A stretch of DNA of 64,000 nt from Halosolutus amylolyticus. Lineage in GTDB: Archaea > Halobacteriota > Halobacteria > Halobacteriales > Natrialbaceae. The notes under the pieces were generated by a model, which was not told the DNA's origin, made no database searches, and saw only the letters and a list, made by a program, of their open reading frames with translations. The stretch spans positions 1,116,001-1,180,000 of the forward strand of contig NZ_JALIQP010000002.1 in assembly GCF_023566055.1 (NCBI RefSeq), read 5' to 3'. This document shows, one piece after another, positions 6,648 through 44,339 of the stretch (position 1 is its first letter; every line of letters begins with the position of its first letter). Both the position numbers and the translations under genes were made by a program.

Positions 6648-6691
6648 GCAGACGCACGCGCCGATCGTACCGCAGTCACGTTGCCGGCGGA

Positions 6692-7840: not shown

Positions 7841-7944
7841 CGAACCAACGTGCGCGACCGACGAATCAAACGGCGGTGACGGATCGGGTGGAATCGGACC
7901 GGCGGAAGGAAGGATAGAAGTTCGCCGTCGGCGAACGCCCTGTC

Positions 7945-9243: not shown

Positions 9244-9351
9244 TCGCCGTCCACACCTCCCGTCTCGCCGCCTCGCGACCGCGCCTGACCCGTCGGTATT
9301 AAAGACCCTTTATCGCGTGGGAGAAACGGGCCTGTTCCTGCCGAATGGGAG

Positions 9352-9401
9352 CAATATACCGGTATTAACCCCCGAGAGAGTCAACTCTCATCTGTGAGGT
9401 G
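9352..9401 (+). promoter_or_regulatory. doxX-like gene promoter, 14-nt palindrome and Shine-Dalgarno
   Basis: TATA-like stretches AATATACC and GGTATTAAC (9353-9369) are followed by GAGAGTCAACTCTC (9376-9389), a 6-bp inverted repeat around a 2-nt centre placed at the predicted transcription start. GAGGTGA (9395-9401) lies 7 nt before the ATG at 9409. This gene therefore has a leader with a Shine-Dalgarno site, unlike most neighbours, and the palindrome may be an operator. Confidence 0.5.
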
Positions 9402-9408
9402 ACGACCA

Positions 9409-9942
9409 ATGGCAACCAATCAAGCAACCGTACAGTGGCTCGGGAGGCAGCAGGAGTTCGAATACGCCGACTCGGTCGCCGGCTACGTGATGGTCGGTAT
9501 CCGACTGATCGTCGGGTACTGGTTCCTCCACGCAGGGTGGACGAAGTTCGCGTTCGTCGCAGGTGAGCCGTTCGACGCGGCCGGCTACCTGATGCACGCG
9601 GAGACGCCGATCGCCGGCCTGTTCGAGATCGTCGCGACGACGCCCTGGCTGCTCGAGTTCACCAACGTGATGATCCCCCTCGGCGAGTTCCTAATCGGCC
9701 TGGGGCTCATCCTGGGGGCGCTCGTGCGCCTCGCCGCCTTCTTCGGCGGCGTCCTGATGACGTTGTTCTACCTGGGCAACGCCGACTGGGCGCACGGCTA
9801 CGTCAACGGGGACCTGCTGGGTCTCATGTTGTTCGTGATCATCGGCGTCTTCGCCGCGGGCCGCATCCTCGGCGTCGACGCCTACCTCGAACAACTCGAG
9901 TTCGTGCAACGGCGGCCGTGGCTCCGGTACCTCCTCGGCTGA
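9409..9942 (+). CDS. DoxX-family membrane protein
   Basis: 177 aa with four membrane helices. GYVMVGIRLIVGYWFLHAGWTKF is the conserved first DoxX helix, and MIPLGEFLIGLGLILGALVRLA the second repeat. DoxX was described as a subunit of terminal thiosulfate:quinone oxidoreductase in Acidianus, but most homologues are poorly defined and may act in redox defence or quinone contact. No DoxD partner is present. The clear promoter, palindrome and Shine-Dalgarno site point to controlled expression. Confidence 0.85.
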   Translation: MATNQATVQWLGRQQEFEYADSVAGYVMVGIRLIVGYWFLHAGWTKFAFVAGEPFDAAGYLMHAETPIAGLFEIVATTPWLLEFTNVMIPLGEFLIGLGLILGALVRLAAFFGGVLMTLFYLGNADWAHGYVNGDLLGLMLFVIIGVFAAGRILGVDAYLEQLEFVQRRPWLRYLLG

Positions 9943-10110
9943 TGCCGCGGGGGCAACGCCCGGCCGACCACTCGAACCGCCACCAGTGACGCTCTCCCGG
10001 CTGTCCGAGATTCGACCACTGTGCCCGGCGATCGGAACCCGTCCGCTCGCCGTTCGATAGCAACCGACCGTTTCTCTCGGGTGCGAACCCGATCGATTCT
10101 CGCATCTCCG

Positions 10111-10311
10111 TTACCGGCAGGACCGATCGACGGCCCCAGACCTCGAATCGAGTCGATCGCCGGTCGTGACGCGGTCGATCACGTCACGCCGCTCGATCGG
10201 CCCGTGGCCGGTCTCGACGTGGTGGTCGATCATCGCCCGTCCGAGGGCGGTGATCTCGTCCTCGCTCGCTTCTCGCTGCCAGTCACACTCGGTGCAGTAC
10301 GCGGTCGGCAC
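10111..10311 (-). CDS. Small putative zinc-binding haloarchaeal protein
   Basis: 66 aa from a GTG at 10309-10311: MPTAYCTECDWQREAS, with Cys6 and Cys9 as a CxxC knuckle and His30, His31 and His36 (DHHVETGHG) as a plausible second half of a C2H2-like zinc site. Many short haloarchaeal zinc proteins look like this; the function is unknown. The last 15 residues are less convincing, and there is no clear TATA box. Divergently placed to the sulfatase gene. Confidence 0.6.
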   Translation of the reverse strand: MPTAYCTECDWQREASEDEITALGRAMIDHHVETGHGPIERRDVIDRVTTGDRLDSRSGAVDRSCR

Positions 10312-10381
10312 GACCGAAACGTCGGGATCGGTCGGACTGAATGCCCCGGTTCACATGTCGCGCGTATTTATTCAGCGGCCC

Positions 10382-10420
10382 CGACGGCCCCAGCGTTGTC
10401 CGGGCCTCGACGGCCCCAGC
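10382..10420 (+). repeat. 13-bp direct repeat before the sulfatase gene
   Basis: CGACGGCCCCAGC occurs at 10382-10394 and again at 10408-10420, a 26-bp period, and the AT doublets after each copy also match. A TATA-like TATTTATT lies at 10365-10372 and AGGAGG at 10428-10433, so the repeats fall in the leader or just after the promoter. Possible operator half-sites or a small duplication. Confidence 0.45.
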
Positions 10421-10450
10421 ATTAACTAGGAGGCCGGTGTACGACGGCCG

Positions 10451-11908
10451 ATGGTCGACACGCCGAACGTCCTGCTCGTCCTCACCGACCAGGAGCGCTA
10501 CGACTGCAGTGCCCCCGACGGGCCGCCGGTCGAGACCCCGACGATCGATCGACTCGCGAGCGAGGGGATGCGATTCGAACGCGCGTGCACGCCGATCAGC
10601 ATCTGTACGAGCGCCCGTGCATCGTTGCTGACCGGCCAGTTCCCGCACGGGCACGGGATGCTCAACAACAGCCACGAGGCGGACGCGATCCGGGCAAATC
10701 TGCCCGACGGCGTCCCGACCTTTTCGGAGGCGCTCGCGACGGGCGACAGCGGCTACGAACTCACGTACACGGGCAAGTGGCACGTCGGCCACGATCAGAC
10801 CCCCGAGGACTTCGGCTTTGCCTACCTCGGCGGGAGCGACGTCCACCACGACGACATCGACGACGCGTTTCGCGAGTACCGCGAGGAGCGCGGGACCCCG
10901 ATGGACGAGGTGGAGTTCGAGGAGGCGGTCTACACCGGTGGCGGCGAGGGCACCTTCGTCGCCGCGAAGGCGCCGATCGACGTCGCGGACACCCGGGCGT
11001 ACTTCCTCGCCGAGCGGACGATCGACACGATCGAGGCCCACGCGACCGGCGATCGAGACGGGCCGTTCTTCCACCGGGCGGACTTCTACGGCCCGCATCA
11101 TCCCTACGTGATCCCCGAGCCCTACGCCTCGATGTACGATCCCGGCGAGATCGACCCCCCGGACAGCTATCTCGAAACGTTCGACGGGAAGCCACAGGTC
11201 CACGAGAACTTCGTCGACTACCGCGGCGTCAGGGGGTTCGACTGGGACACCTGGGCCGAGGTGCTCGCGAAGTACTGGGGGTTCGTGACGCTGATCGACG
11301 AGCAACTCGAGCGGATCCTCGACGCGCTCGAAGCGTACGGACTGGCCGACGACACAGCGGTGATCCACACCTCGGATCACGGCGACTTCGTCGGGGGCCA
11401 CCGCCAGTTCAACAAGGGGCCGCTGATGTACGACGACACCTACCGTATCCCGCTGCAGGTGCGCTGGCCGGGAGTCACCGAGCCGGGATCGGTCTGCGAG
11501 TTCCCCGTCCACCTGCACGACCTCGCGCCGACGATCCTCGAGATGGCCGGCGTCTCGATTCCGGATTCGTTCCACGCCCGGAGCCTCGTCCCGTTTCTCG
11601 AGGGCGACGATCCGGACGACTGGCCCGACTCGACGTTCGCCCAGTACCACGGCGAGGAGTTCGGTCTCTACACCCAGCGGATGGTCCGCACCGATCGATA
11701 CAAGTACGTCTACAACGGCCCGGATATCGACGAACTGTACGACCTCGATCGCGACCCCGCCGAACTGCAGAACCTGATCGACCACCCCGAGTACGCCGAC
11801 GCGCGATCGGCGATGCGAAAGCGACTGGTCGAGTGGATGTACGAGACGGACGATCCGAATCGGGAGTGGGTTCCGGACGTTCTCGCGGACGCGCCGGAGG
11901 GGACCTGA
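10451..11908 (+). CDS. Sulfatase-family hydrolase
   Basis: 485 aa, alkaline-phosphatase fold. LLVLTDQERYD gives the N-terminal metal aspartate, GKWHVG and HTSDHGDFVGGH the other metal and catalytic sites. The nucleophile region is CTSARASLLTG (Cys52-Thr-Ser54-Ala-Arg56). The canonical formylglycine motif is C-x-P/A-x-R, so the third position is Ser, an unusual variant. No signal peptide, so it is intracellular and probably acts on small sulfate esters (choline-sulfatase-like) or on a phosphonate or phosphate ester. No formylglycine-generating enzyme is nearby. It stands alone. Confidence 0.85.
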   Translation: MVDTPNVLLVLTDQERYDCSAPDGPPVETPTIDRLASEGMRFERACTPISICTSARASLLTGQFPHGHGMLNNSHEADAIRANLPDGVPTFSEALATGDSGYELTYTGKWHVGHDQTPEDFGFAYLGGSDVHHDDIDDAFREYREERGTPMDEVEFEEAVYTGGGEGTFVAAKAPIDVADTRAYFLAERTIDTIEAHATGDRDGPFFHRADFYGPHHPYVIPEPYASMYDPGEIDPPDSYLETFDGKPQVHENFVDYRGVRGFDWDTWAEVLAKYWGFVTLIDEQLERILDALEAYGLADDTAVIHTSDHGDFVGGHRQFNKGPLMYDDTYRIPLQVRWPGVTEPGSVCEFPVHLHDLAPTILEMAGVSIPDSFHARSLVPFLEGDDPDDWPDSTFAQYHGEEFGLYTQRMVRTDRYKYVYNGPDIDELYDLDRDPAELQNLIDHPEYADARSAMRKRLVEWMYETDDPNREWVPDVLADAPEGT

Positions 11909-12037
11909 TCTCGGTCGTCGGCATCCGCTGTACGAGGAGCGCGGGTCTCGAGCCGATTGATGTGAGCCCCCTTCGGATTGATATGTTAACAGTTGATGTA
12001 ATCTACTGACGTGAGGTATCAAGTGTCGTGAGAGAGA

Positions 12038-13531
12038 ATGACTGCCGATAACGGCGACGGCGTATCCGGGACGAACGTGAATCGACGGACGGTCCTCGGG
12101 GCGGCCGGCAAAGCGACCGTCGGCGCAGCGGCCCTCGGCGCCACCACCGGATCCGCGGCCGCCGACGGCTCCTACACGCGACACGAACACGGCGGCCTCG
12201 AGTACACCAAGTACGTTCCCGGCGCCGTGGACGGAAGCGACGCCGTCCCGCTGGTCGTGATGCTACACGGCTGTACCCAGGACGCCGACGACTTCGCGGC
12301 CGGGACCGGGATGAACGAGGTTGCCGACGAGAACGAGTTCGTCGTACTCTACCCCGAACAGTCGTCGGGCCGCCACTACAACGACTGCTGGCAGTGGTTC
12401 AACGACCGGAACACGACCTGGGGACGGGGCGAAGCCGCGATCATCGCGGGAATGGTCGACGAGGTGAAGTCGGAGCACAATATCGACGACGGCGAGGTCT
12501 ACGCCGCCGGACTGTCGGCAGGCGGAGCGATGGTTCCCAATCTGGTGGTCGAGTACGCCGACGTGTTCTCGGCCGCCGGCGTTCACTCGGGACTCGAGTA
12601 CGACGCCGTCGAAGACGAGAACAGCGGCCTGCTGGCGATGACCCAGTGCACCGCCAAAGATCCCCAGGAGGCGGGTACCCGGGCGTACGACAGAATGGAG
12701 GAGTTCGGGATCACGGACGCGGTCCCGACGATCGTCTTTCACGGCACCGACGACACCACGGTCTATCCGTGCAACGGCGAGCAGGCAGCCGAACAGGCGA
12801 CGCAGACCAACGATCTCGCGTACAACGACGCGGACGACGATGCGATCGACTACGACCCCGACGAGACGTACACCGACTGTTCGGCGCCGAAGTGCGCCGC
12901 GGTCTCCGAGTTCCACGATCCGGATGGCCGGAGTCTCGTCGAGTACTGGGAGGTCGACGGCCTGGGACACGCCTGGGCCGGCGGGGACTCCGCTGGCTCG
13001 TACACCGACCCCGACGGACCGGACGCCTCGCGCGAGATGTGGGCGTTCTTTTCGAACGGGGCCACGGACCCCGGCGACGACGACCCGGTTGCAGAGGCGT
13101 CGGCCGACCCGAATCCGGCTGCCCCGGGCGAATCGATCACCTTCGACGCCTCGAACTCGAGCCATCCCGACGGTGCGATCGAGAGCTACGAGTGGGACTT
13201 CGACGACGGAACGGCGGCCACCGGTGAGACCGTCACTCACAGCTACGATTCGACGGGAACGCGAACCGTCGAGTTGCGTATTACCGGCACCGATGGCGCG
13301 ACCGCCACCGATACCGTCACGCTCGACGTGATCGAGGACGGGTTCGACGGCTACTGCGGGACGGACGACAACTACTCGCACGTCGACGCTGGCCGGGCCT
13401 GGACCGACGGCTCGTACGCCTACGCGGAGGGCTCCGACGAGAACATGGGCCTCTACAACGTCTTCGAAACGTCTCGACTGAAGGAGACCTCGCCCGGCTA
13501 CTTCGAACTGGTCGAGTCCTGCGACGGATAG
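12038..13531 (+). CDS. Tat-exported PHB-depolymerase-like esterase with PKD domain
   Basis: 497 aa. Residues 14-43 are a twin-arginine signal (NRRTVLGAAG). The alpha/beta hydrolase domain has the oxyanion region VVMLHGCTQDADDF, nucleophile GLSAGG (Ser160), an Asp in HGTDDTTVYP and His in GLGHAWAGG, as in the LpqC/PHB depolymerase esterase family. A PKD domain follows (about 345-435; SYEWDFDDG), then about 55 residues (YCGTDDNYSHVDAGRAW to SPGYFELVESC) like the C-terminal module of bacterial extracellular PHA depolymerases. Likely hydrolyses polyesters outside the cell. The 5' flank (11960-12030) is AT-rich. The domain set suggests import from bacteria. Confidence 0.85.
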   Translation: MTADNGDGVSGTNVNRRTVLGAAGKATVGAAALGATTGSAAADGSYTRHEHGGLEYTKYVPGAVDGSDAVPLVVMLHGCTQDADDFAAGTGMNEVADENEFVVLYPEQSSGRHYNDCWQWFNDRNTTWGRGEAAIIAGMVDEVKSEHNIDDGEVYAAGLSAGGAMVPNLVVEYADVFSAAGVHSGLEYDAVEDENSGLLAMTQCTAKDPQEAGTRAYDRMEEFGITDAVPTIVFHGTDDTTVYPCNGEQAAEQATQTNDLAYNDADDDAIDYDPDETYTDCSAPKCAAVSEFHDPDGRSLVEYWEVDGLGHAWAGGDSAGSYTDPDGPDASREMWAFFSNGATDPGDDDPVAEASADPNPAAPGESITFDASNSSHPDGAIESYEWDFDDGTAATGETVTHSYDSTGTRTVELRITGTDGATATDTVTLDVIEDGFDGYCGTDDNYSHVDAGRAWTDGSYAYAEGSDENMGLYNVFETSRLKETSPGYFELVESCDG

Positions 13532-13626
13532 TCCCGTCGACGCCGGGCGCGGAAGCGTACGTTTACGGTTCCGAAACGGCTACCACCGGGTATGATCGTC
13601 GACGTGCGCGAAACGGAGGGGTATCG

Positions 13627-14073
13627 ATGACGGGAGCGACGGACGACGAGGCGGATCCCGACGACCTTCGGGAACGGGCGCGCGAAGACGAGGCGATCGC
13701 CGACGCGCTCGAGGAGCTCGTCGTGGAACTGCGGGACGACCCGGTCAGGGAGTCGCGACTCGAGAGGCTGTTCGACGAGGCGAGTACGAGCAACCCGAAT
13801 ATCTGGAACACCGTGACGGCGTTCATCGACGTCGAGGACGGCGAGGCGATCGTCACGGAGGAGTCGAAACTGGCACAGGGAAGCTGGGCACCCGAGATCG
13901 TCGAGGACTGCGACGCGATGCTCACGCTCGACATCGAGTACGGGATGATGCCCGACGACTTCAAATACCGCGCCGGGAAGGAACTGAGCCGGACGATCGA
14001 GGCGTTCCGCGAGGAGGCGGCCGACGCGCGAGAGACGGCCGCCGAACTCGAGAACGGAACGGACGGGGCCTGA
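13627..14073 (+). CDS. Haloarchaeal hypothetical protein
   Basis: 148 aa, unrecognised. Strongly acidic and largely helical, with a central conserved-looking block (SNPNIWNTVTAFIDVEDGEAIVT) and a C-terminal coiled-coil-like RTIEAFREEAADARETAAEL. No signal peptide or membrane segment. Convergent with the JAMM gene; the hairpin element at 14087 fills the gap between them. Confidence 0.65.
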   Translation: MTGATDDEADPDDLRERAREDEAIADALEELVVELRDDPVRESRLERLFDEASTSNPNIWNTVTAFIDVEDGEAIVTEESKLAQGSWAPEIVEDCDAMLTLDIEYGMMPDDFKYRAGKELSRTIEAFREEAADARETAAELENGTDGA

Positions 14074-14086
14074 GATCGGCCGCTCC

Positions 14087-14168
14087 TACGGACTGCTGTC
14101 CGTCAGTTCCGGCGCAACCGCAGACGGGTCGCGGTTGCGCTGGTATATCGGTACAGCAATCCGTATCA
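14087..14168 (-). repeat. Hairpin element copy A (79 bp plus terminal TGA)
   Basis: Inner stem CCGGCGCAACCGC (14109-14121) pairs with GCGGTTGCGCTGG (14131-14143) around a 9-nt loop; outer arms TACGGACTGCTGT (14087-14099) and ACAGCAATCCGTA (14153-14165) pair with one mismatch. The same architecture, with identical arm offsets, recurs at 32464, 35638 and 54773. On the minus strand the element begins TGATACGG, and that TGA is the stop codon of the JAMM gene. It lies between two convergent genes and could form a bidirectional 3'-end structure. Confidence 0.85.
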
Positions 14169-14606
14169 CTCGGTGACGACTCGTTCGCGCTCGAACCGAT
14201 CGTCGTCCCGGTCGGTCCGATCGTCGCTCCGATCCGCTCGCCAGCGCCACGACCCGATCTCGAACGGCTCCAGCGAGACGATCACGTACGATCGATCGGG
14301 CCACGTCGCCCGCGCTTCGTCGGTCGCGCTCGGCCGCGGCGGGCCGCGAGGGTGGGAGTGGTAGAAGCCGACGATTTCCTCGCCCCGATCCTCCAGGCGC
14401 TCGAAGATCACGAGTTGTTCTTCGGGGTCGATCCGGTAGCGCGTCCGCGGTTGCTCGGCGACGTTTTCGGCGGGGTACTGCGATCGAACGCGGCTCCGGC
14501 CGTCGGGATCGTACTCGCCGCCGAGAACCCCACAGATTTCCGCCGGGTGGCCCTCGCGTGCGCGCTCGACGATCGCGTCGCGAACCGACGACGGGAGGAC
14601 GAGCAC
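14166..14606 (-). CDS. JAMM/MPN+ metalloprotease, probable desampylase
   Basis: 146 aa. The JAMM signature is complete: the catalytic Glu in PAEICGVLGG, HSHPRGPP (His-x-His) and SATDEA with the metal Asp. Size and layout match Haloferax HvJAMM1, which removes ubiquitin-like SAMP proteins from lysines and releases SAMP from fusions. The C-terminal tail (WRWRADRSDDRTDRDDD) is low-complexity. It starts 5 bp downstream of the btuF stop on the same strand, so it may be co-transcribed with btuF. Its stop TGA is supplied by hairpin element A. Confidence 0.88.
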   Translation of the reverse strand: MLVLPSSVRDAIVERAREGHPAEICGVLGGEYDPDGRSRVRSQYPAENVAEQPRTRYRIDPEEQLVIFERLEDRGEEIVGFYHSHPRGPPRPSATDEARATWPDRSYVIVSLEPFEIGSWRWRADRSDDRTDRDDDRFERERVVTE

Positions 14607-14610
14607 GGGA

Positions 14611-15588
14611 TCAGTCGACCTCCGCTCGCGAGTCGCCGGCGGTGTCGGCGTCGCCCGTCTCGATCGACGCGAGGTCGTCGAACGGGACCGCGACGTTCCG
14701 GTCCGGGGCGTCGAACCGATCGGGATGGACGATCCCCGCGATCGCCTCGAGCGTGTCCACGAGCCGCGGGCCGGGCCGGTTGAGGTAGTGGTGGCCGTCG
14801 AGCGCCCAGACCCGATCGGTCTGCACAGCAGCGAGATCGTCCCAGCCCTCGCGATCGGTGAGATCGGTCCAGTTCGCGGCGATCTGGTCCAGCCCGAACC
14901 CGCAGGGTGCGACGATCACGAGTTCTGGATCGTACTCGCGGATCTCCGTCCACTCCCGCGGGCGGGAGCGCTCGCCCGCGTCGGCGAGGCCGTACTCGCC
15001 GCCGGCCCAGTCGACGAGTTCGGCCGTCCAGTGGCCCGCGATCATGACGGGGTCGGTCCAGTCGAAGATCGCCACCCGCGGGCGATCGTCGTCGTCGAGA
15101 TCGGCCGTCCGCTCCCGGACGGTGTCGATCCGGGCCTCGAGGTCCAGTCTGGCCTCCCGGGCGTGCGCTTCGCGGCCGGTCACCCGGCCGAGCCGATCGA
15201 GGTCGTCGAGGACGTCCGCGACGCTGTGCGGGTCGGTCGTGAGGACCTCTGGATCGGCGTCGAGTTCCGCTACCGCGTCGGCGACGACAGCCTCGTCGAC
15301 CGCACAGACGTCGCACATGCCCTGCGTGACGATCAGGTCCGGATCGAGGTCCTCGAGCGTCTCGACGTCGACGTCGTAGATGCCGCCCTCGGTTTCGGCG
15401 GTGTCGAGCACCTGCCGATCGATCTCGCCGCTCGAGGCGCGTCGCGCCTCGCTGATCCGCGATCGGGTAACCGAGGGGAGCGATTCGACGCCCGGCGGGT
15501 AATCACACTCGTGAGAGACGCCGACGGGTTCGATACCGAGCGCGGCAACGAGTTCGGTCGCAGAGGGGAGCGTCGTGACGATTCGCAT
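14611..15588 (-). CDS. btuF: Cobalamin/iron-type substrate-binding protein (BtuF-like)
   Basis: 325 aa, helical-backbone metal-receptor (TroA-like/BtuF) fold. MRIVTTLPSATELVAALG at the N-terminus, SHECDYPP, DLIVTQGMCDVC and VIVAPCGFGLDQ match haloarchaeal cobalamin-binding proteins. No signal peptide or lipobox is seen, unlike classic transport receptors, so it may be cytoplasmic or a divergent corrinoid-binding protein. BtuC/BtuD are not adjacent. The gene leads the pair with the JAMM protease. Confidence 0.82.
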   Translation of the reverse strand: MRIVTTLPSATELVAALGIEPVGVSHECDYPPGVESLPSVTRSRISEARRASSGEIDRQVLDTAETEGGIYDVDVETLEDLDPDLIVTQGMCDVCAVDEAVVADAVAELDADPEVLTTDPHSVADVLDDLDRLGRVTGREAHAREARLDLEARIDTVRERTADLDDDDRPRVAIFDWTDPVMIAGHWTAELVDWAGGEYGLADAGERSRPREWTEIREYDPELVIVAPCGFGLDQIAANWTDLTDREGWDDLAAVQTDRVWALDGHHYLNRPGPRLVDTLEAIAGIVHPDRFDAPDRNVAVPFDDLASIETGDADTAGDSRAEVD

Positions 15589-34176: not shown

Positions 34177-34330
34177 ACGAATCCTTCAGAAACTACAATG
34201 ATACACATTTCGGTTTCTCGCTCTCGTCACGCGGTTTCGGATTCAGCACCGGCTGCCAGGATCGATCGTGCGGAATCGAGGCAAGAAGGACCCGCTAGCG
34301 AAGAGCCTGGGAAGAACCGTAGCGAAGGAA

Positions 34331-35491
34331 CTAGATCCGTTCCCACGCGTCGTCGTCGTCCGGGTCCGGCAGATCGTCGTCGGGCGGCCCGATCGGATCC
34401 GATCCCCCGTCGATAGACGGCGGGACGGGAGTGGCCCCGGAATCGCCGGTGACCGGCGACGACTGGTCGCCGAACTCCATCTTCGGCCAGGCGGTTCCCT
34501 CCCACTGGCCGCGATCGGAGTAATAGTAGACCACGTTCCCGTTGACGACCGCGAACAGATCGCGTTGCCGATCGTTGACGACGCGTTCGTTCGTATCGAT
34601 CGCGACGTCGACGACGTCCTCGAGCGTGTCGAGTTCGACGTGGTAGTCACCGACCCACATCGGGATCGATCCCCGCGAGATCCACTCCGCGTAGCGCTGT
34701 TCGTAGACGGCGCGTCGGGCGGCGTCGACGTCGATCGGACCGCGAGTGTAGACGAACGCGGCGCCGCCGAACGAGAGGACCGCGACCAGCAACAGGACGC
34801 CGATCGCCGGCGCGTTCGGCGACTCCTGGACCTCGATCGTGGCCGTTTCGGAGTGGTCGGTCGAGTCCTCCAGGGGCTCCTCGAGCCAGTAGGCGTCCTC
34901 GGTCATTCGGACCGGACTCGACAGGACCTGTTCGTCGGCGTACGTTCCCGTATCGTACTCGACGACGACCTCGATGGAGGTCGTGATCGATCCGACGTCG
35001 ACGAGGTCGTCCTCGAGAGCCGCGCGCTGATCGCGGACGTCGTCGACTGTGATCGTCGTCTCGGAGGTCGCGACGCCGTCGACGACGGACGCCTCGGTCC
35101 GGGACTGGGGGACGGTCTCTTCCCAGAAGACCGATCCGTCACGTGCCGCCTCGTGTCTGATCCGCACCTCGTGGATCACCGACGCCTCGCTGGACGCGAC
35201 TGCGGTCCGTGGCGTAATCGTCAGGTTCGGCGTCGCGGCGAACGTGTAGACCGAACTGTCCACGAGCCTCGTCCCCGACTCCCAGAGGCCGTCTTCGACG
35301 ACGACGGCGCTCGTGGTCGTCTCCGTCGAAACGGTCTCCTGGTTCACCTGCTGGGTCGTCGTCGACGTCGAGGGTGTCGCGACGACCCAGCCTGTCGCGA
35401 CGACCGCGAGCACGCCCACGACGGCGAGCGCGATCGCGAGCGATCGTCCGTACGTCGCGATCAGCAGGTTCAGCCGCGGGTTCCCGATCAC
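34331..35491 (-). CDS. DUF5305-like exported membrane protein
   Basis: 386 aa from a GTG at 35489-35491 (V/MIGNPRLNLLIATYGRSLAIALAVVGVLAVVATGW). A first membrane helix (about 13-35) is followed by a beta-rich extracellular domain of about 200 residues, a second helix near 225-245 and a cytoplasmic tail with an acidic Pro/Asp end (DDDLPDPDDDDAWERI). I recognise this as DUF5305, a family often found beside archaeal signal peptidases. The fixed position after the SipW-like gene suggests a role in processing or assembly of exported subunits. The start is uncertain. Confidence 0.75.
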   Translation of the reverse strand: MIGNPRLNLLIATYGRSLAIALAVVGVLAVVATGWVVATPSTSTTTQQVNQETVSTETTTSAVVVEDGLWESGTRLVDSSVYTFAATPNLTITPRTAVASSEASVIHEVRIRHEAARDGSVFWEETVPQSRTEASVVDGVATSETTITVDDVRDQRAALEDDLVDVGSITTSIEVVVEYDTGTYADEQVLSSPVRMTEDAYWLEEPLEDSTDHSETATIEVQESPNAPAIGVLLLVAVLSFGGAAFVYTRGPIDVDAARRAVYEQRYAEWISRGSIPMWVGDYHVELDTLEDVVDVAIDTNERVVNDRQRDLFAVVNGNVVYYYSDRGQWEGTAWPKMEFGDQSSPVTGDSGATPVPPSIDGGSDPIGPPDDDLPDPDDDDAWERI

Positions 35492-35637
35492 GGCGGTACC
35501 CCCCCACGGAGCGGCCCCCACCGCTCTCTCGTTCCCCGGACTCGAACCGTGCCCGAACCGATCGGTCGGACGACGGAACAGTTCATATCTACGACCAAGG
35601 AATCGATCGTCATAACGATAGTGGCCCGAAGCCTCCA

Positions 35638-35719
35638 CACGGGCGACTGCGAGTCAGTTCCGGGACGACCGCGGGACGGGTGCGGTGGGACCGGAAACGA
35701 CTTACAGTAAACCGTATCA
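35638..35719 (-). repeat. Hairpin element copy D (79 bp plus terminal TGA)
   Basis: Read on the minus strand it begins TGATACGGTTTACTGT; inner arms correspond to 35682-35694 and 35660-35672 with a 9-nt loop. This is the most divergent copy, with degraded pairing, but ends and offsets fit. Its TGA (35717-35719) is the stop codon of the signal peptidase gene, and it lies inside the 225-bp gap before the DUF5305 gene. Confidence 0.75.
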
Positions 35720-36895
35720 GTCGTCGCGGCGCAACCGCCGGAGCTTTCGCTGGAGTCGGGTCCAGAGCGGAACGTGCCCGCCGGGCCGGCGGATCCGGAA
35801 GTCGCCGCTGCCGAACAGGACGAGCACCGCCACGACGGTGACGCCGACGATCACCGCGTTGACGGCGGTGATCGCAGCCAGCGGGTGGACCCCGTGGAGC
35901 CACACGAGCACCGACGGCGGGAGGACGGCGAGGTACCGGTGTTCCCCCACGTGGCGCGCGTACTCGCCGGTCGTCTCGGGAGCCGTCAGCGAGATGGTCG
36001 TCTCGCCGGAATCCCGTGGACCGACGACCTGCCGATCGGGTTCCGCGTCGACGCCGCTGCTCTCGGCCTCGTGGACGACGACGATCGGAACGTAGCCCGC
36101 GTTGTCCACGGTGCGGGGCAGGTCGGTCGACGCACCCGGGGCGAGAACCTGTGGATCGTCGGTGGGATCGTCCGTACTCACGAGTCCGTACTCGTAGGTG
36201 CCGGACGGGATCACCATCGCGGCCGTCGCGAGCGTCACGAGGACGAGCAACACGAGTCCGATCGTGGTCCAGAACGCGTAGACGTTCTCCCGGGCGGTCG
36301 ATCGCGTCGTGTCGCGTCGATGCGGACCGACGCGCTCCACGAGGAGCCCGAAGCCGAGCATCGCGATGCCGAGCGCGATCATGATCGCCCCGGCGTTCTC
36401 GGCTTCGAACGCCGTCGTCACGCCGAGCGGAGCGGTGAGGAGATCGTACCCCGACTCCATCACACCCTGGACGCCCATGATTGCCGTCCCGAGGTGGGGG
36501 ATCGACACGACCTCGCCGTTTACTTGCCAGGCGACGGCGACGATCTGGCCCTCGGTGACCGGCGGTTCACCGCCGTCCTGGTCGGTGAAGGGGTTCGAAT
36601 CCCCTTTCGTGACGTACCCTTCGTCCGTCTCGTCGACGATCCGGTGGGTCGTCAGCCCGCCGTCGTGTAGCTCGCGGGCGTTGAACACCACGACATCGCC
36701 CTCGCTCGGCGAGCCGGCGACGGCGCTGGGAATCGCGACGAAGCCGTCGCCGGCGTCCATCGTCGGTTCCATGCTCCCGGTCGCGACGTAGCCGAGCAGG
36801 ATCGGCTGGCCCAGGAGTTGGCCCAGAACGAGCAGGAGGACGACGAACGCGACGGCTACGGTCAGCGCTCGTTTGACCAGCGAACCCGTCGTCAT
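35717..36895 (-). CDS. SipW/Sec11-type signal peptidase with long C-terminal extension
   Basis: 392 aa. N-terminal membrane helix (9-30), then the catalytic domain: ATGSMEPTMDAGD with nucleophile Ser41, LTTHRIVDE with His84 (His in place of the bacterial Lys, as in Sec11/SipW), and TKGDSNPF with Asp99. After about residue 165 comes a second half with three or more membrane helices enclosing an extracellular domain (180-370), absent from minimal enzymes. It sits next to TasA-like and CARDB exported proteins, so a dedicated substrate range is likely. Stop codon provided by hairpin element D. Confidence 0.88.
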   Translation of the reverse strand: MTTGSLVKRALTVAVAFVVLLLVLGQLLGQPILLGYVATGSMEPTMDAGDGFVAIPSAVAGSPSEGDVVVFNARELHDGGLTTHRIVDETDEGYVTKGDSNPFTDQDGGEPPVTEGQIVAVAWQVNGEVVSIPHLGTAIMGVQGVMESGYDLLTAPLGVTTAFEAENAGAIMIALGIAMLGFGLLVERVGPHRRDTTRSTARENVYAFWTTIGLVLLVLVTLATAAMVIPSGTYEYGLVSTDDPTDDPQVLAPGASTDLPRTVDNAGYVPIVVVHEAESSGVDAEPDRQVVGPRDSGETTISLTAPETTGEYARHVGEHRYLAVLPPSVLVWLHGVHPLAAITAVNAVIVGVTVVAVLVLFGSGDFRIRRPGGHVPLWTRLQRKLRRLRRDD

Positions 36896-36958
36896 CCGTG
36901 CTCACGAGAGACGATCATGGTCGAGTGACTGTTCGATCGGCCTCTGGGATCGGACGCG

Positions 36959-38092
36959 TCATAAATTCACTCGTCGACGGACGCCGGTCGCGGCGAACAG
37001 GAACCCGAGCACCCCCGCCGGCACGACGGCCGCCGCCGATGAGGAGGTGAACTCGCGGTTCAGCACCACGATCAGCTCCCGCTCGGTGACGGTGAGGGTT
37101 CCCGCGTCGACGCCGCTGACCGCGATCGCGTACTCGCCCGGGTCGTCGAACTGGCGCTCGAACGTCACCGTCGTCACCTCGCCGGGGTCGAGTTCGACGA
37201 GTTGCGTGTCGACGACGGCGCCGCCGACGGCGAGTTCGATGGTCGTTTCTCCGGTCACGTTCCCGGTATTTTCGATCGTGGCCGTGACCGCGGCCGACTC
37301 GCCACGGGGTATGGTGTCGGCCTCGAGTGTGGCTTCGATCACGGCGAAATCCGGCGCCGGTTCGCCGGGCGGCCAGACCGTGATCGATCTGGGTTTCCGA
37401 TCGTCGACGCCAACCTCGAACGTGCCGGACCGATCCATCGATCGCTCGAACGCGACCGTCTCGGTCTCGCCCGCCCCGACGTGGACGACCTGCCGATCGA
37501 CCACGATCCCGTCGACGACGAGTGTGGCGATCGTCGAGCCGCGATCGTCGCCGTAATTTCGGTAGGTCGCGTTCACCGTGAGCGTCTCGCCGGCCCCGAG
37601 TTCGGCGTCCGAGTAGGCGACGTCGACGAGTTCGATATCGGCGTTCTCGTCGTCTTCGTCTGCGTACTCTACGTGAACGGTGAACGATTTGGTCCCGGAC
37701 GCTGCGACGTGGGTATCGATCGCGACGCCGACGCTGGTCGTGTCACCGGCCGCCGGAACGATCGGGTTCGACTCGTCGAGTTCGTCGTTGCGATCGCCAT
37801 CCCGGTAGAAGGTTACGCCGTCGACCTCGTGAGAGAGCCAGATCCGCTCGATCGAGTCGTCGGCGACGCTGATCGAGAAGACGTCGTCGAACTCGGACCG
37901 CGATCGATCGTTCAGCGCCGCGAAGTCGAGCGTGAGTTCGCCGTCGTCGATCGTGGCGTAGGGAGAGGTAGATTCGAGGGCGACGTCGTCGGCTGCCCCA
38001 TCCTCACCGATCGTGATCGCCGCAGTTGGGACTGCGATCGCGACGAGAAAGCAGATCGCGGCGGCGGTGAACAGGATTTTGCTGGATGGCAT
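36959..38092 (-). CDS. Exported two-CARDB protein with C-terminal membrane anchor
   Basis: 377 aa from ATG 38090-38092 (MPSSKILFTAAAICFLVAIAVPTAAIT), a cleavable Sec signal. Residues 30-150 form a beta domain (ISVADDSIERIWLSHEVDG) resembling TasA-like subunits. Two CARDB-type domains follow (VDVAYSDAELGAGETLTVNATY and FAVIEATLEADTIPRGES), then a C-terminal helix FTSSSAAAVVPAGVLGFLFAATG and a basic tail. An upstream TTG would add 10 residues and is less likely. Likely a wall-anchored scaffold or fibre base; 63 bp before the signal peptidase gene. Confidence 0.78.
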   Translation of the reverse strand: MPSSKILFTAAAICFLVAIAVPTAAITIGEDGAADDVALESTSPYATIDDGELTLDFAALNDRSRSEFDDVFSISVADDSIERIWLSHEVDGVTFYRDGDRNDELDESNPIVPAAGDTTSVGVAIDTHVAASGTKSFTVHVEYADEDDENADIELVDVAYSDAELGAGETLTVNATYRNYGDDRGSTIATLVVDGIVVDRQVVHVGAGETETVAFERSMDRSGTFEVGVDDRKPRSITVWPPGEPAPDFAVIEATLEADTIPRGESAAVTATIENTGNVTGETTIELAVGGAVVDTQLVELDPGEVTTVTFERQFDDPGEYAIAVSGVDAGTLTVTERELIVVLNREFTSSSAAAVVPAGVLGFLFAATGVRRRVNL

Positions 38093-38262
38093 CCGAGGAA
38101 CTCGTTGTAATATTCGGTTCAAATCAGGCGTGCAAACACGTTCTCACGCAGCGAGTCGTCTCTAAATAAGGAGTTAGATTCCTCACCCGTGATTTCTATC
38201 GTACCAGTCGTTCAAATATACAGTCAATCTTATTTAGATATATTCGATCGTCTCAAGAGTGA

Positions 38263-38811
38263 CTACTCTACGTCGTAGTCCTGTTCATCAGCAACGATCT
38301 GGATCACATTCGCATCCGCTGGAGCGCCAGTATCACTGTCAATACTCATGTTTACTGTCACACTTTCGCTAGGATCATTCGACGCCAAGTTACCATCTTC
38401 ACCTGTTCCTGGAGCACTAGTCAGATCGTGCCCATTTGCTGCTGATGTGAAACTAAATGCACCAACTACAGAATCGCCATCATCTGTATTTATTGCTTGA
38501 ACCTTCACACCGACATCCTGTCCCCCGTTATTTGTGATTGTAAACGCCGGTTCAACTTTTGTCGTCGCATTGTCATTGAGGTTATCAAGATTGAATTTGA
38601 GGTCGCTTCCACTACCTCCATCATTGGTTACCAAATCGGAACTACCGTCCGCATCAAGAGCAAGAAGTGCACTATCGTTGTCATCTGCAATACTAATATT
38701 GACAGTTCGATCGGCTTCCACACTACTAAACGCACCCGTTCCGAGTGCGGCTCCGCCGCCCGCGACGATCGTACCCAATCCAGCTAACACATTACGTCGA
38801 TTCAGTCTCAT
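38263..38811 (-). CDS. TasA/camelysin-like exported protein (DUF1102-like)
   Basis: 182 aa. MRLNRRNVLAGLGTIVAGGGAALGTGAFSSVEADR is a signal with an RR-like n-region, and the GTGAFSSVEADRTVNISIADD start of the mature part matches haloarchaeal DUF1102 proteins and parallels the AAFSD/TWAAF start of bacterial TasA and CalY. The rest is beta-rich with many Asp, Ser, Gly and Asn and no Cys. The gene has far lower GC than its neighbours, with A/T-ending codons. Divergent from the 39085 regulator and upstream of the CARDB-signal peptidase genes, it is a candidate fibre subunit. Confidence 0.78.
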   Translation of the reverse strand: MRLNRRNVLAGLGTIVAGGGAALGTGAFSSVEADRTVNISIADDNDSALLALDADGSSDLVTNDGGSGSDLKFNLDNLNDNATTKVEPAFTITNNGGQDVGVKVQAINTDDGDSVVGAFSFTSAANGHDLTSAPGTGEDGNLASNDPSESVTVNMSIDSDTGAPADANVIQIVADEQDYDVE

Positions 38812-39084
38812 TGTTGGATTCTCCGTTATGATCCGCGCCGCGATCGTAGGCGTCGATTACGATCGGCGGCCGGTTCTTACTCACACCCTGTAACCCCACC
38901 CCCTTTGTATTGAGTCGCCAGAACGGCTGAACGGTGACCGATACCCGGCTTCAAGCCGACCGTGAACGAATCGACTGCCGGATAGCAGTGCCTGAAATCG
39001 CGATCGTGAGAGAGTTTCCCAGCCACGTTGGCAATAAGGGTTATGTATCGGAGATCCGTAAACTCGGACATCCCTAACAGTCGC

Positions 39085-39672
39085 ATGGCGACGACACAAC
39101 ACAGTAGCGATGGGTCTACCGATGGCGTCGCGGCCGACGCCCAGAGCGACGCTACCGGCATCGATCGCGGCGAAGTCTTCACCCTTCTCAGCAACCAGCG
39201 CCGCCGGTACGCGATCCACTACTGCAAGCGCGAGGACGAACCCGTCGAACTCGGGGACCTCGCGGAACACGTCGCCGCCTGGGAACTCGACAAAGAGGTC
39301 GACGGGCTGACGTCGGCCGAACGAAAGCGGGTCTACACGTCCCTCCAGCAGACGCACCTGCCGACGCTCGATCGCGCGGATATGGTGGAGTTCAATGATC
39401 GGACGATCGAACTCACCGAGAACGTCTCCGACCTGGAGATCTACCTCGACGTGGTCCCCGAGGATTCGATCCCGTGGAGCACGTACTACCTCGGGCTCGC
39501 GGCCGTCGCGACGGTCGTGATGACCGGGTTGTGGCTCGAGTGGATCCCCACGGAGACGGTGCCGGAACTCGGCTGGGCGACGATCGTGATTGCGTTGTTT
39601 GCTGTTTCGGCGATCGTGCACGTGGTACAGAACCGTCGAATGCGACTCGGGGAAACGGAGAGGCCACCGTAA
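39085..39672 (+). CDS. Membrane-tethered wHTH regulator (DUF7344-like)
   Basis: 195 aa. Residues 30-110 (FTLLSNQRRRYAIHYCKRE to TLDRADMVEFNDRTIELTE) are the DUF7344-type winged helix common in haloarchaea. Two C-terminal membrane helices follow (WSTYYLGLAAVATVVMTGLWLEWI and GWATIVIALFAVSAIVHVVQ). ATG 39085. It ends 3 bp before the next gene, so both are in one operon. Tethering of a DNA-binding domain to the membrane suggests that it responds to envelope state, perhaps controlling this surface island; inference only. Confidence 0.82.
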   Translation: MATTQHSSDGSTDGVAADAQSDATGIDRGEVFTLLSNQRRRYAIHYCKREDEPVELGDLAEHVAAWELDKEVDGLTSAERKRVYTSLQQTHLPTLDRADMVEFNDRTIELTENVSDLEIYLDVVPEDSIPWSTYYLGLAAVATVVMTGLWLEWIPTETVPELGWATIVIALFAVSAIVHVVQNRRMRLGETERPP

Positions 39673-39675
39673 CGG

Positions 39676-40539
39676 ATGACACGCTCACTCACGGTCGTTG
39701 CGATCGGGTTGATCGTCCTCGGAGCGGTGGCTATGGCCGGACCGACGTTCGGATTTAGTACGATCGCGGGTGACCGCGTGACCTCCATCGAGACGGCGGA
39801 GGGTTCAAGTGCGTTAGTCGGGCTGGAAGCCGCCGAAGAGCCGTCGATCGACGGTCGGCAAGACGAGGAGACCGTCGGCTGGGTCACGAACAATATGGCG
39901 AACGAGGCAGCCATCACTGCCGATATCGTCCTTCCGGAAGGCGTGGCCATTAGCGATGGGTCCGATGTCGGTCCCAGCTTCGTTCTCGGCCCGGACGAGG
40001 AACCGGCAGCCCTCGTATTCGAATGTGACGGCGGCGGTTCAAGTGGGACAGATGCGACCGTCACTGTCACAATCGAAGAAGCAGACACTGGTTCCGTTCG
40101 CGTGGAGGGAGCGTCGTTTTCGACACAACTAGACTACACGTGTACTGGATCGGGAGGCTCTGAACCAGTATCCGGTGAGTTGGAACAGACGTCGGACCCG
40201 CAAGTCGACAACGAAAATGTGACGTTCGACGTCGAAAACAACGGCACAGACAGATTCCGTGTTACACAGTTTGCGGTCGACCACGGTGCATCCACCGAAA
40301 TCACCGAAATCACGATCGACGGTGATACTGAAACGCCGGATGGCGGCCAGTGGCTAACTGATGGAACGGATATCGACGTCAGTTCTGGACAGAGTGGGCT
40401 AACGAGTATCGATCCGGGCGAGACGGTAACAGTGGCGCTCAAATTCGACGTGGAGATGAACGGGGAAACGTTTGAGATCACCTTTACGGATACCCAATCG
40501 AACCCGGACAAGACGGCTACGATATCTGTTACCGCCTGA
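39676..40539 (+). CDS. Exported beta-rich protein, TasA-like
   Basis: 287 aa. A Sec signal (MTRSLTVVAIGLIVLGAVAMAG) is followed by GFSTIAGDRVTSIETAEGSSALVGL, similar in layout to the TasA-like start of the 38263 protein. Two beta-sandwich-like halves, about 40-150 and 165-287, the second with a CARDB-like DNENVTFDVENNGTDRFRVTQ. Two Cys (ECDGGG, YTCTGS) could form a disulfide. No C-terminal anchor. It directly follows the regulator and precedes the large pilin-leader adhesin. Confidence in export is high; the TasA-like label is moderate. Confidence 0.72.
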   Translation: MTRSLTVVAIGLIVLGAVAMAGPTFGFSTIAGDRVTSIETAEGSSALVGLEAAEEPSIDGRQDEETVGWVTNNMANEAAITADIVLPEGVAISDGSDVGPSFVLGPDEEPAALVFECDGGGSSGTDATVTVTIEEADTGSVRVEGASFSTQLDYTCTGSGGSEPVSGELEQTSDPQVDNENVTFDVENNGTDRFRVTQFAVDHGASTEITEITIDGDTETPDGGQWLTDGTDIDVSSGQSGLTSIDPGETVTVALKFDVEMNGETFEITFTDTQSNPDKTATISVTA

Positions 40540-40940
40540 CAACTATGGCGTAGGGTTCGTACCGGTTTCGCCTATCCACAATAGTATCGTCGACGGCCTT
40601 GGAGAGAGAGGTGACGTATCGTTAGCCACGACGCTTTCAGAATCCAGTTTTACGCTGCCAGGTAACGATCGACACGCCTTGTGGTATTGTTCTCGTCGAG
40701 TCTAAGCATTGAAAGACCGAACGCTGGTAAGACCTGACCCGAACAGGTCAACGACCCACGCGAACACGTCACTCGATCGGCGTAACGGCATCCGCCGTAC
40801 TGATTGATATCGATAGGAGCCTCGTCCGGTCATAAATTCGGTGACCGAAACTCAAATGCTGCTTGAAGCCACCACTGTGGCTACAATTATTCCCATAACC
40901 ATTGTATTTTTATGATATTAGCACAGTATCACGAGGAAGG
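40540..40940. other. 401-bp noncoding gap before the adhesin gene
   Basis: No gene is supported. The stretch is less GC-rich than the average. It holds an inverted repeat (40867-40882) and an AT-rich promoter (GTATTTTTATGATATTAG, 40902-40919) before the adhesin ATG, which is preceded by GAGGAAGG. Such length suggests a regulated, separately transcribed adhesin. Confidence 0.6.
40867..40882. promoter_or_regulatory. Inverted repeat upstream of the adhesin promoter
   Basis: AGCCACCACTGTGGCT: 6-bp arms around a 4-nt spacer, about 30 bp upstream of the TATA-like region at 40902. Placement fits an activator or repressor site; the arms are short, so chance is possible. Confidence 0.35.
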
Positions 40941-43900
40941 ATGTGGCAGAACTGGCGGGGAAGCGGTGACGACACCGATCGGGGTGTGAGCCCGATCGTC
41001 GGTATCACCTTGCTGTTCGGGATGGTGTTCGTCGGAGCAATTCTCGTGTTTGTCATGGGGTCGGCGATGTTCGACACGGTCGGGTCGGAAGTCGATCGCG
41101 AGAAAGTCCATTTGTGTATGGGCGAAGCGGACCACCGGCTCGGCACCGTTGTGGCGACGCGAACCGAGCAACCGATGGCGTTCGACGATCCGGACTGTCA
41201 ACCCGAGGTGGTCGAGGAGGGAGCACTCGAGATCACGTGGTTCAACAGTTCAGATGAGGACCCGGACTGGGACAACGAGAGCCGAACCGTCTCCGAAGAC
41301 CTCGGCGCACTCAAGTTCGAACTCGACGATCGAACGATCGCCCACCAGGGCGGCGGCATCTGGGAACGTACCGACTCTGGAGCCAGGGTCGTGAAAGCCC
41401 CGAATGTTGGGTTCGACGGCAACGAGACGCTGCAGTTGGATTTCATGCAACTCGATTCGGTGGAGGCCGCTGGATCGCAGTCGAAAGCCCAACACGACTA
41501 CGAGAGCGGCTCAAGCGCGGTCGAAAACCTCACGTCTGCTGTCGAAACGAGTGACGGGGAGGATTTCGCACTGCGGATCGAAAGCAGGTATGCCGAGGCG
41601 TGGGAACGACACTTAGAACGTGAAGCCGAGGGTGTCGACAAGTGGAACGTCAGCGTGACCCGCAAAGACGACGAAGTCGTGATGAAGGTCGAGGACATCG
41701 GTGACGTCCCGGCCGATCCGCACTTCCTGATTGACCGGGATTACGGACTAACCACTCATGACGAAGGGTACCCACACGCGATCGAAAACAATCGCGTCGA
41801 ACAGGGAGACAGGTTCCGTATCAACGCGTCGCTGACGAATTACGGAGATACGGAGAGTGACGTCGAGGCGACGATCTCGATCTGGAACGAGTCCGAACTC
41901 GTCGAAGAGCGAACGATCGAGTCCAAAAACGAGTACGATACCGGTGAGAGCGTATTCACCGGCGAACACGAAAAGTGGGACAATAATCACTTCTTCCACG
42001 TGGGATCCGAGGGAGAACACGGCATCGATCTCACGCCGGGAGAGGAGTACACGTACGACGTTGAAACCGGCCCCGGCGGCGACTCGCTCGTCGAGCGAGG
42101 GACGTTTCTCGTCGTCGACGAACCCCCCGAGTTTGCGATCCAAAACGTCGACATCGACGGACCAGTCACGCCGAGAGAGTCGCTAACGGTCGACGCCAGG
42201 ATCAAAAACCAAGGTGAACAACACAAGCAGTTCGTCTGGCTAGAAGGATTCGACGGCAACGTCGTCGACATCGGCGAACTCGAACTCGATCGGAACGAGC
42301 AGAAGACGGTAACACTCGAGTGGGGAAGCGTCGACGTCCCTGCAGAGCCCGACGAAGCCGAGATCACGGTCGGAACGGAAACCGACAGCGAGACCGTAGA
42401 CGTGGACATCGATCCGCTGCTGGAAGTGAGCGACATCGAGGTGCTCGACGATCCGGTCGAAGAAGGCGACCCGGTGACGGTTCGGGCCGACATCGAGGCG
42501 ATCGGCGGTGAGACAGAGCAGGACGTCGTTCTGGAAGGATTCGACGGAACCGAAGTCGATCGACGGAGCGTGACCGTGTCGGGAAGCGAAACCGTGACGC
42601 TCCAGTACGACGACGTCGGAGAGCCGACCGGCCGGGTCACGGTCAGGACGGACGATGACGAGATGGAGGAAGTGGTCGTCGTCGATCGAGACGGTCCCGT
42701 CTGTGGCGCAGTCAGTTACGACGGGAGCGGAACGGGATCCGATCCGTATCAGGTGAGCACCGTCGACGAACTCCAGTGTATCGACGACCAGGGACTCGAC
42801 GCTCATTACGAACTCGTCGACGACATCGACGCCCACGGGACGGAATACTGGAACGACGGGGCCGGGTTCGAGCCGATCGGCGATCAGTGGTTCTGGGGCA
42901 ACGAGTTCGCCGGTGATTTCGACGGCAATGGACACGCGATCAAGGGGCTCCACATCCACCGCCCCGACGAAAATTTCGTCGGGTTGTTCGCCATCAACGA
43001 GTACTTCGACGACAGCGGCCCGGGCGTGGGTGAGGGATCGAAGATCCACGACCTTCGACTCGAGAACGTCTCGGTCCACGGGCAGCAGGTTACCGGCGGG
43101 CTGATCGGCGCAGCCGGTGGCGTCATCGAGAACGTTCGCGTGAGCGGTGAGGTCACGGCCGAATATCAAGAAGTCGGTGGGATCGCCGGCTCCGCCCACA
43201 ACGCCGACCTCGACAATCGGTTGGTTTCTGAGGCGACGGTCAAGGGAGGCGTTCCGGCCGCGGCGACTCACGAGGTGTACCATCCGTGGGGAGCCGACAA
43301 CATGGGTATCGGCGGGATCGTCGGCTCGACCGGCTACAACACGGAAGTGTCGACCGCGTACTCGCTGGCGGACGTCGAGGGACCGTTCGCGGTCGGTGGG
43401 ATCGTCGGCTGGACCTCCGACTTCGCCAGCGACAACGAGCAAATGTACTGGGCCGAAGGCGACATCGAGTTGACGGCGGATCCGTGGGAAATCGAAGACT
43501 ACCTGAATTGGATGGGGAGACCCGTGCATTCAGCCGACAACACGGGCGGCGCGATCTTCGGGCGCGGTGACGACGCGAACGATGGATTCGATGACAGCGT
43601 CTACTACAACGTCGACGATCACGAGTCGGCGTTCGGCGAGCACGTCATCGGAGAGCAGATCGATGTAACCGGACGGCACACCCACGAGATGCAGGGGCTC
43701 AACGCGACGGACCCCGGAAAACTCGGCAACCTCCATTATGAGGAGGACGGCGGCCCCTGGGTCGCGATTCCGGATACCTATCCACGGTTTGCGTGGGAAC
43801 TCGAGGCCGAAGGCGTCTTCGAGGTCGAAATTGACGACATCGAAGAAGACGTGACCGCCGGCGAAACCGCTACGATCGATGTTACGGTCACGAGTCGATA

Positions 43901-44222
43901 TCAAGACCGGGACGAAGAGAGCGTCACGCAGACGATCACGCTCACAAATCCCGACGGCCAGATCGTCGACACGGAGCAGGTGACGTTAGAAAGTAGTCTC
44001 GACGAAGACGATGAGAAAGAGATTTCACTCGTCTGGCAGACCGATTTCGGAGACGACGGCGTCGGCAACGTCACCGTCCGAAGCGACGATCGGGAAGATT
44101 CCGCACAGATCGAAATCGACAGTATCGACGATAGAACCGGCGAGTCAGACAGTTCTGTGGACGACATCGTCGGAGGCGATTCCGAGATTGACATCGATGT
44201 CGACGCGGTTGAGGTTAGCTGA
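40941..44222 (+). CDS. Giant pilin-leader adhesin with CARDB and GLUG repeats
   Basis: 1093 aa from ATG 40941. The N-terminus MWQNWRGSGDDTDRGVSP then a hydrophobic helix (IVGITLLFGMVFVGAILVFVMG) is a class III (type IV pilin) signal, expected to be cut by PibD after RG. CARDB-like domains lie near 395-480 and 492-570; from about 586 to 880 there are GLUG-like repeats (GGLIGAAGG, GGIAGSAHN, GGIVGSTGYN, GGIVGWTS); another CARDB-like domain is near 958-1040. The end is a flexible acidic tail. GLUG repeats are found in surface proteins and M26 peptidases. Likely a surface adhesin or pilus-tip protein. GC is lower than in housekeeping genes. Confidence 0.85.
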   Translation: MWQNWRGSGDDTDRGVSPIVGITLLFGMVFVGAILVFVMGSAMFDTVGSEVDREKVHLCMGEADHRLGTVVATRTEQPMAFDDPDCQPEVVEEGALEITWFNSSDEDPDWDNESRTVSEDLGALKFELDDRTIAHQGGGIWERTDSGARVVKAPNVGFDGNETLQLDFMQLDSVEAAGSQSKAQHDYESGSSAVENLTSAVETSDGEDFALRIESRYAEAWERHLEREAEGVDKWNVSVTRKDDEVVMKVEDIGDVPADPHFLIDRDYGLTTHDEGYPHAIENNRVEQGDRFRINASLTNYGDTESDVEATISIWNESELVEERTIESKNEYDTGESVFTGEHEKWDNNHFFHVGSEGEHGIDLTPGEEYTYDVETGPGGDSLVERGTFLVVDEPPEFAIQNVDIDGPVTPRESLTVDARIKNQGEQHKQFVWLEGFDGNVVDIGELELDRNEQKTVTLEWGSVDVPAEPDEAEITVGTETDSETVDVDIDPLLEVSDIEVLDDPVEEGDPVTVRADIEAIGGETEQDVVLEGFDGTEVDRRSVTVSGSETVTLQYDDVGEPTGRVTVRTDDDEMEEVVVVDRDGPVCGAVSYDGSGTGSDPYQVSTVDELQCIDDQGLDAHYELVDDIDAHGTEYWNDGAGFEPIGDQWFWGNEFAGDFDGNGHAIKGLHIHRPDENFVGLFAINEYFDDSGPGVGEGSKIHDLRLENVSVHGQQVTGGLIGAAGGVIENVRVSGEVTAEYQEVGGIAGSAHNADLDNRLVSEATVKGGVPAAATHEVYHPWGADNMGIGGIVGSTGYNTEVSTAYSLADVEGPFAVGGIVGWTSDFASDNEQMYWAEGDIELTADPWEIEDYLNWMGRPVHSADNTGGAIFGRGDDANDGFDDSVYYNVDDHESAFGEHVIGEQIDVTGRHTHEMQGLNATDPGKLGNLHYEEDGGPWVAIPDTYPRFAWELEAEGVFEVEIDDIEEDVTAGETATIDVTVTSRYQDRDEESVTQTITLTNPDGQIVDTEQVTLESSLDEDDEKEISLVWQTDFGDDGVGNVTVRSDDREDSAQIEIDSIDDRTGESDSSVDDIVGGDSEIDIDVDAVEVS

Positions 44223-44339
44223 TCCACGGTCTGCAGTCGTGCGGTTTGCTTTCGGGATCGGTCAAACCATGCATCGAAACGAACGACCCTTCACCACCAA
44301 CCCGAACCCCTTTTCACCCCCGAAAACAGAGTCTCTCCC

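Follow-up and report, generated by a model that had tools for sequence, protein, structure and literature searches.

Seven adjacent genes at positions 34331-44222 of a 64,000-nucleotide stretch of the Halosolutus amylolyticus genome (the whole stretch analysed, referred to here as the window) raise the question of which kind of surface fibre, if any, they encode. The genes had been taken in an initial annotation for a combination not described before, in which a SipW-like signal peptidase and two TasA-like subunits were joined with a second, PibD-type export route. Searches with Pfam and NCBIfam models confirmed the seven genes in place and with the domains given to them.

Gene layout and the candidate main subunit

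The gene for a DUF5305 membrane protein of 386 aa (34331..35491, reverse strand; PF17231, E 3.8e-44) is the conserved last gene of the module. Also on the reverse strand are the genes for a SipW-like (S26B) signal peptidase of 392 aa, which has an extracellular domain at its C-terminus as well as additional membrane segments (35717..36895), for a CARDB protein (36959..38092) and for a protein of 182 aa, the candidate main fibre subunit (38263..38811). A divergent intergenic region, probably a shared control region (38812..39084), separates the latter from the forward-strand gene for a DUF7344 protein (39085..39672), and the same divergent layout was found in relatives. The DUF7344 protein (PF24035, E 4e-29) consists of a winged-helix-like domain and C-terminal membrane segments, and both the DUF5305 membrane protein and the DUF7344-like protein, a candidate membrane-bound regulator, had been recognized correctly in the annotation. 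A secreted protein of 287 aa (39676..40539) and a DUF7289/CARDB/GLUG protein of 1093 aa (40941..44222) complete the forward strand. Better start positions were taken from relatives for the DUF5305 gene (35491, picked by the relatives' MI[DG]NPRL), the CARDB gene (38092), the DUF7344 gene (39085) and the GLUG gene (40941). The G+C content dips to about 56% over the 182-aa gene, the divergent region and the gene of the 287-aa protein (window positions 38001-42000), with about 66% around it.

The 182-aa protein matched the NCBIfam model TafE with an E-value of 8e-30, reaching 103.9 bits of a 155-bit cut-off. The NCBIfam tafi models comprise the three families TafA, TafC and TafE, and their cut-offs are set at equivalog level. 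Scores in the window for the other two families were likewise below the curated cut-offs (TafA 55 of 190 bits, TafC 33 of 410), and no protein of the window's genome was above the cut-off of any of the three, in which it differs from described tafi. Compared with the pilin in PDB entry 9P0A ("Structure of Natrinema sp. J7-2 Tafi pilus", released 2025-07-23), the window pilin gave an E-value of 2.5e-19, mainly through the signal and the early mature part, which are nearly identical in the two proteins; its body is strongly diverged and the whole protein is shorter (182 vs 215 aa). A profile built from its relatives matched 9P0A chain C over the full length, with an E-value of 5e-51. The protein in the same slot of Natrinema gari (L045:7965-8612) is identical to 9P0A chain C in 215 of 215 residues, and the cluster around it agrees with that of the window in gene content and in flanks (EMC6-Rli1 at one end, the acyl-CoA ligase and HTH genes at the other). 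A literature search found no mention of 9P0A in papers. Tat-fimbriae (tafi) in haloarchaea are credited to Galeva et al. (2025, iScience 28:111793) in a citing article (PMC12687288). Because of the identity of the N. gari protein to the solved subunit, the TafE match and the published Tat-fimbriae, the system can not be called undescribed, as the annotation had done; the cluster is of the known tafi kind and is new only as a further member.

Likeness to tafi extends to the Tat-type signal, the TafE-like pilin, a TafC slot after DUF7344 and homologues of SipW and DUF5305. The twin-arginine motif of the pilin, MRLNRRNVLAG (R5 and R6), had been overlooked in the annotation. R5 was invariant and R6 was kept in at least 90% across 37 relatives of the pilin, and the Tat model TIGR01409 scored just under its cut-off (15.8 vs 16.7). 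From this signal we infer that the main subunit is exported by the Tat pathway. Pairwise identity among the Natrialbaceae relatives was 87% in the signal, 69% in the first 17 mature residues and 25% in the remainder. The body of the window pilin beyond residue 45 shares just about 23% identity with its relatives. Such conservation of the signal and of the mature N-terminus would fit a recognition site for a dedicated peptidase, together with a conserved N-terminal strand.

The probable processing peptidase and the other candidate subunits

The annotation had described a Ser-His-Asp signal peptidase, and this was confirmed. The archaeal S26B signal peptidase model TIGR02228 scored 54 bits against a cut-off of 51.9, and Ser41, His84, Asp99 and Asp105 were invariant in 37 relatives. 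The peptidase tree consisted of two clades, each with a support of 100/100. One of them (A) holds the window's peptidase together with loci carrying a curated TafA, and the other is that of the second cluster of the same genome, described below. The pattern GAF[ST][ST]xxADR was found four times in a DNA pattern search of the 4.59-Mb genome, every time in an exported protein of the two clusters, and the reversed pattern had no match in the same genome. In the window pilin the codons of GAFSSVEADR (38708..38736, reverse strand) mark the position at which the protein is probably cleaved and its mature form begins. Among 145 haloarchaeal genomes, 110 had both the peptidase and a TafE-like protein, one the peptidase alone, five a TafE-like protein alone and 29 neither (Fisher 3e-24, a test that ignores the shared ancestry of the genomes). 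The SipW-like peptidase thus probably trims the pilus subunits. That such a dedicated peptidase lies beside a fibre subunit, as the annotation had proposed, is borne out, the relatives of the subunit presumably forming donor-strand-type pili.

The CARDB protein was found to be more than the protein with a C-terminal anchor noticed in the annotation. Its CARDB domain gave an E-value of 3e-15, and a DUF1102 match was borderline. The anchor stands, and what had been missed is that CARDB is preceded by a fused pilin-like domain: residues 9-153 align over the full pilin profile (hhalign probability 97.6, E 3e-12). The N-terminal 145 residues are accordingly pilin-like; after them come CARDB domains and, at the C-terminus, a membrane segment, and the protein is a candidate for an anchored base subunit. 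This additional anchor protein is a difference from described tafi.

The gene of the 287-aa protein starts 3 bp after the DUF7344 gene, the position that TafC has in curated loci. Its TafC match was weak (3.8e-5), its signal is of the Sec type without a twin arginine, and it has no LamG domain, and it differs from described tafi in the last two respects. A motif in the signal and N-terminus is common to this protein and the pilin (hhalign probability 96). The core was modelled by AF2 at a pLDDT of about 90, and Foldseek placed the Ig-like first domain among Ig/MSP-like folds; the second half was not resolved in the model, and the profile of the protein had no match to PDB sequences. The TafC slot is variable across loci: TafC of one curated locus (L123) carries a LamG lectin domain at its end, and others, judged by eye, end in repeats. 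The LamG-type domain of the former (L123:9543-10682) hints that the slot bears a binding end. The protein is a candidate tip or adaptor.

Conservation of the module and the variable site

Eighty loci were retrieved by way of the peptidase, 69 of them with enough flank; the peptidase is present in these by construction and was not counted. DUF5305 was found in 68 of the 69, a TafE or pilin-like protein and DUF7344 in 67 each, and the CARDB protein in 58. Six of the seven genes thus make up a module conserved across haloarchaea. The gene order that the annotation had proposed to compare is widely kept for these six; the seventh, GLUG, gene stands outside the module. In Natrialbaceae the clusters sit between the EMC6-Rli1 genes and the HTH/acyl-CoA ligase genes. 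In Halorubrum, among others, the same partners occur at other chromosomal places, so the grouping goes beyond plain local synteny.

A second, paralogous cluster of the same plan was found in the same genome, about 107 kb away (L012, G000:C2:1028000-1046000, positions 6654-14896). Its peptidase is 46% and its DUF7344 protein 45% identical to those of the window, and it carries two Tat pilin-like proteins and a PGF-pre-PGF/CARDB anchor protein. Since the gene set recurs in other genomes at other places, and a second time in this one, it is not a product of chance. Loci with TafA, TafC and TafE above cut-off also hold the DUF7344-TafC pair, the SipW-like peptidase and DUF5305. Two of the loci (L123 and L124) carry these partners, which are those of the window, around TafA and TafE, and in the relative G143 TafA itself lies inside a cluster syntenic with the window's genes. 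One genome (L128, G129:C1:2526000-2545000) has 13 TafE-like matches, many lying near one another, and thus an unusually expanded pilin set.

The cluster lies in a variable island of 10,063 bp (34240..44302). Alignment by blastn with a genome of the same genus (G145, L136) gave 93% identity in the flanks, as far as 34239 and from 44303 onwards, with the island replaced by about 190 bp. Neither the window nor the empty site contained a tRNA that could have served as an integration site. Because the site is common to Natrialbaceae, loss in that genome appears likelier than a recent gain.

The 1093-aa protein was above the cut-off of PF23960 (DUF7289) and has CARDB and GLUG parts. Its type IV pilin-like leader, DRGVSPIVG, was recognized by eye, and the class III signal peptide model TIGR02537 gave 12.5 against a cut-off of 20. 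The annotation had seen in it a second, PibD-type route combined with the fibre. Such a hybrid, with the leader protein a working part of the fibre, for example a PibD-exported adhesin on it, gains from the presence of a DUF7289-type gene in 15 related Natrialbaceae clusters, though the window's genome has only seven such genes in total. The CARDB and GLUG parts are shared by just two of the 15 loci (L026 and L035), the rest sharing the N-terminus only, and neither the second cluster nor the clusters outside Natrialbaceae contain the gene. Another genome of the same genus (G146, L137) keeps a DUF7289-type gene at this site and has neither SipW nor TafE; most of the acyl-CoA ligase gene is also missing there. 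We consider a hybrid fibre improbable. As the gene is missing from the second cluster and was kept where the pilus genes are gone, it appears to be a frequent surface-protein neighbour, linked to the site and separable from the pilus.

Relation to other fibres and proposed assembly

The AF2 model of the pilin was weak (pLDDT 66). Its first hit by Foldseek was the Pyrobaculum bundling pilus 7UEG and its fourth the Tafi pilus 9P0A, with marginal E-values. The annotation had suggested a search for a jellyroll with a donor strand in both presumed subunits; the pilin model marginally resembles pili of the donor-strand type, and the core of the 287-aa protein was modelled as Ig-like, not as a jellyroll. 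The modest confidence of the pilin model, and the fact that the window cluster is known from genes alone, would leave room for the pilin-like proteins being separate secreted or surface proteins that are cut by the peptidase and build no fibre. Set against this is the N. gari protein, which occupies the same slot and has the very sequence of the subunit in a solved pilus, and we regard a role outside a fibre as very unlikely.

The Pyrobaculum bundling pili (7UEG) and the Sulfolobus threads (7PNB) resemble the window's system in their beta-sandwich subunit, in which the signal peptide is followed by an N-terminal strand. They differ in having a Sec signal in place of the Tat-type signal, and neither was matched in the PDB sequence search. 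The Pyrobaculum pilus has been tied to TasA by mechanism in the discussion of the thread paper (PMC9715654). With the Bacillus TasA/TapA/SipW system the cluster shares a peptidase beside a fibre subunit and the general assembly logic; the protein families are different, and the cluster has no M73 match, a Tat-type signal and the additional DUF7344 and DUF5305 proteins. A Bacillus-type biofilm-fibre operon, in which SipW would process two TasA/camelysin (M73) proteins, is the least probable of the readings, for although a SipW-like peptidase lies beside exported beta-rich proteins and Foldseek ranks the Pyrobaculum pilus first, no protein of the cluster matches M73 (PF12389), for which reason it was rejected, the SipW-Bacillus model gave the peptidase just 35 bits against a cut-off of 190, the specific matches go to the Taf families and the Tafi pilin, and the truly M73/SipW-type set sits elsewhere in the genome. 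The two TasA-like subunits of the annotation fall with it, and the 287-aa protein was ruled out as a second TasA-like jellyroll by its Ig/MSP-like fold. A scan of the whole genome with PF12389 at E 0.001 returned no match; by direct hmmscan, one protein was just over the M73 cut-off. This protein belongs to a third, divergent set (L138, G000:C8:97000-112000, positions 6474-10309), consisting of a SipW-like peptidase, DUF7344, a small exported protein and a 542-aa Tat protein. The 542-aa protein has a SipW-dependent-type signal (TIGR04088) and an M73 match above cut-off. It is this set rather than the window cluster that resembles TasA/camelysin.

The cluster, then, very probably encodes a thin tafi-type surface pilus, and the GLUG/DUF7289 gene, which occupies the same variable site, is a neighbour coding for a surface protein. 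The folded 182-aa pilin would be exported through Tat, as its twin-arginine signal indicates, and cut by the neighbouring SipW-like peptidase at G(S/T)GAF(S/T)(S/T)xxADR, to judge from the motif and the co-occurrence of the two. The 9P0A pilus is presumably built by donor-strand exchange, and by homology to its pilin the freed N-terminal strand would enter the next subunit. With its pilin-like domain tethered by a membrane anchor, the CARDB protein probably secures the base of the fibre, the TafC-slot protein is probably its tip or adaptor, and DUF7344 probably a membrane-bound regulator. It is conceivable, if somewhat doubtful, that the extra extracellular domain of the peptidase, at about residues 226-340, and the anchored pilin-CARDB fusion form a minimal assembly platform, at which cleavage frees the donor strand at the base and so couples processing to polymerisation without a chaperone or usher.

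An apparently undescribed gene cluster is hereby placed among the tafi pili, and the pairing of pilus and peptidase is found to be widespread in haloarchaea (the 110 of 145 genomes). Roles are suggested for its parts: the CARDB protein would serve as a pilin-like base held by its anchor, the protein in the TafC slot as a tip that varies, and DUF7344 as the regulator usually present. Within one genus the cluster is cleanly present or absent, which offers a natural basis for comparing adhesion and virus sensitivity.
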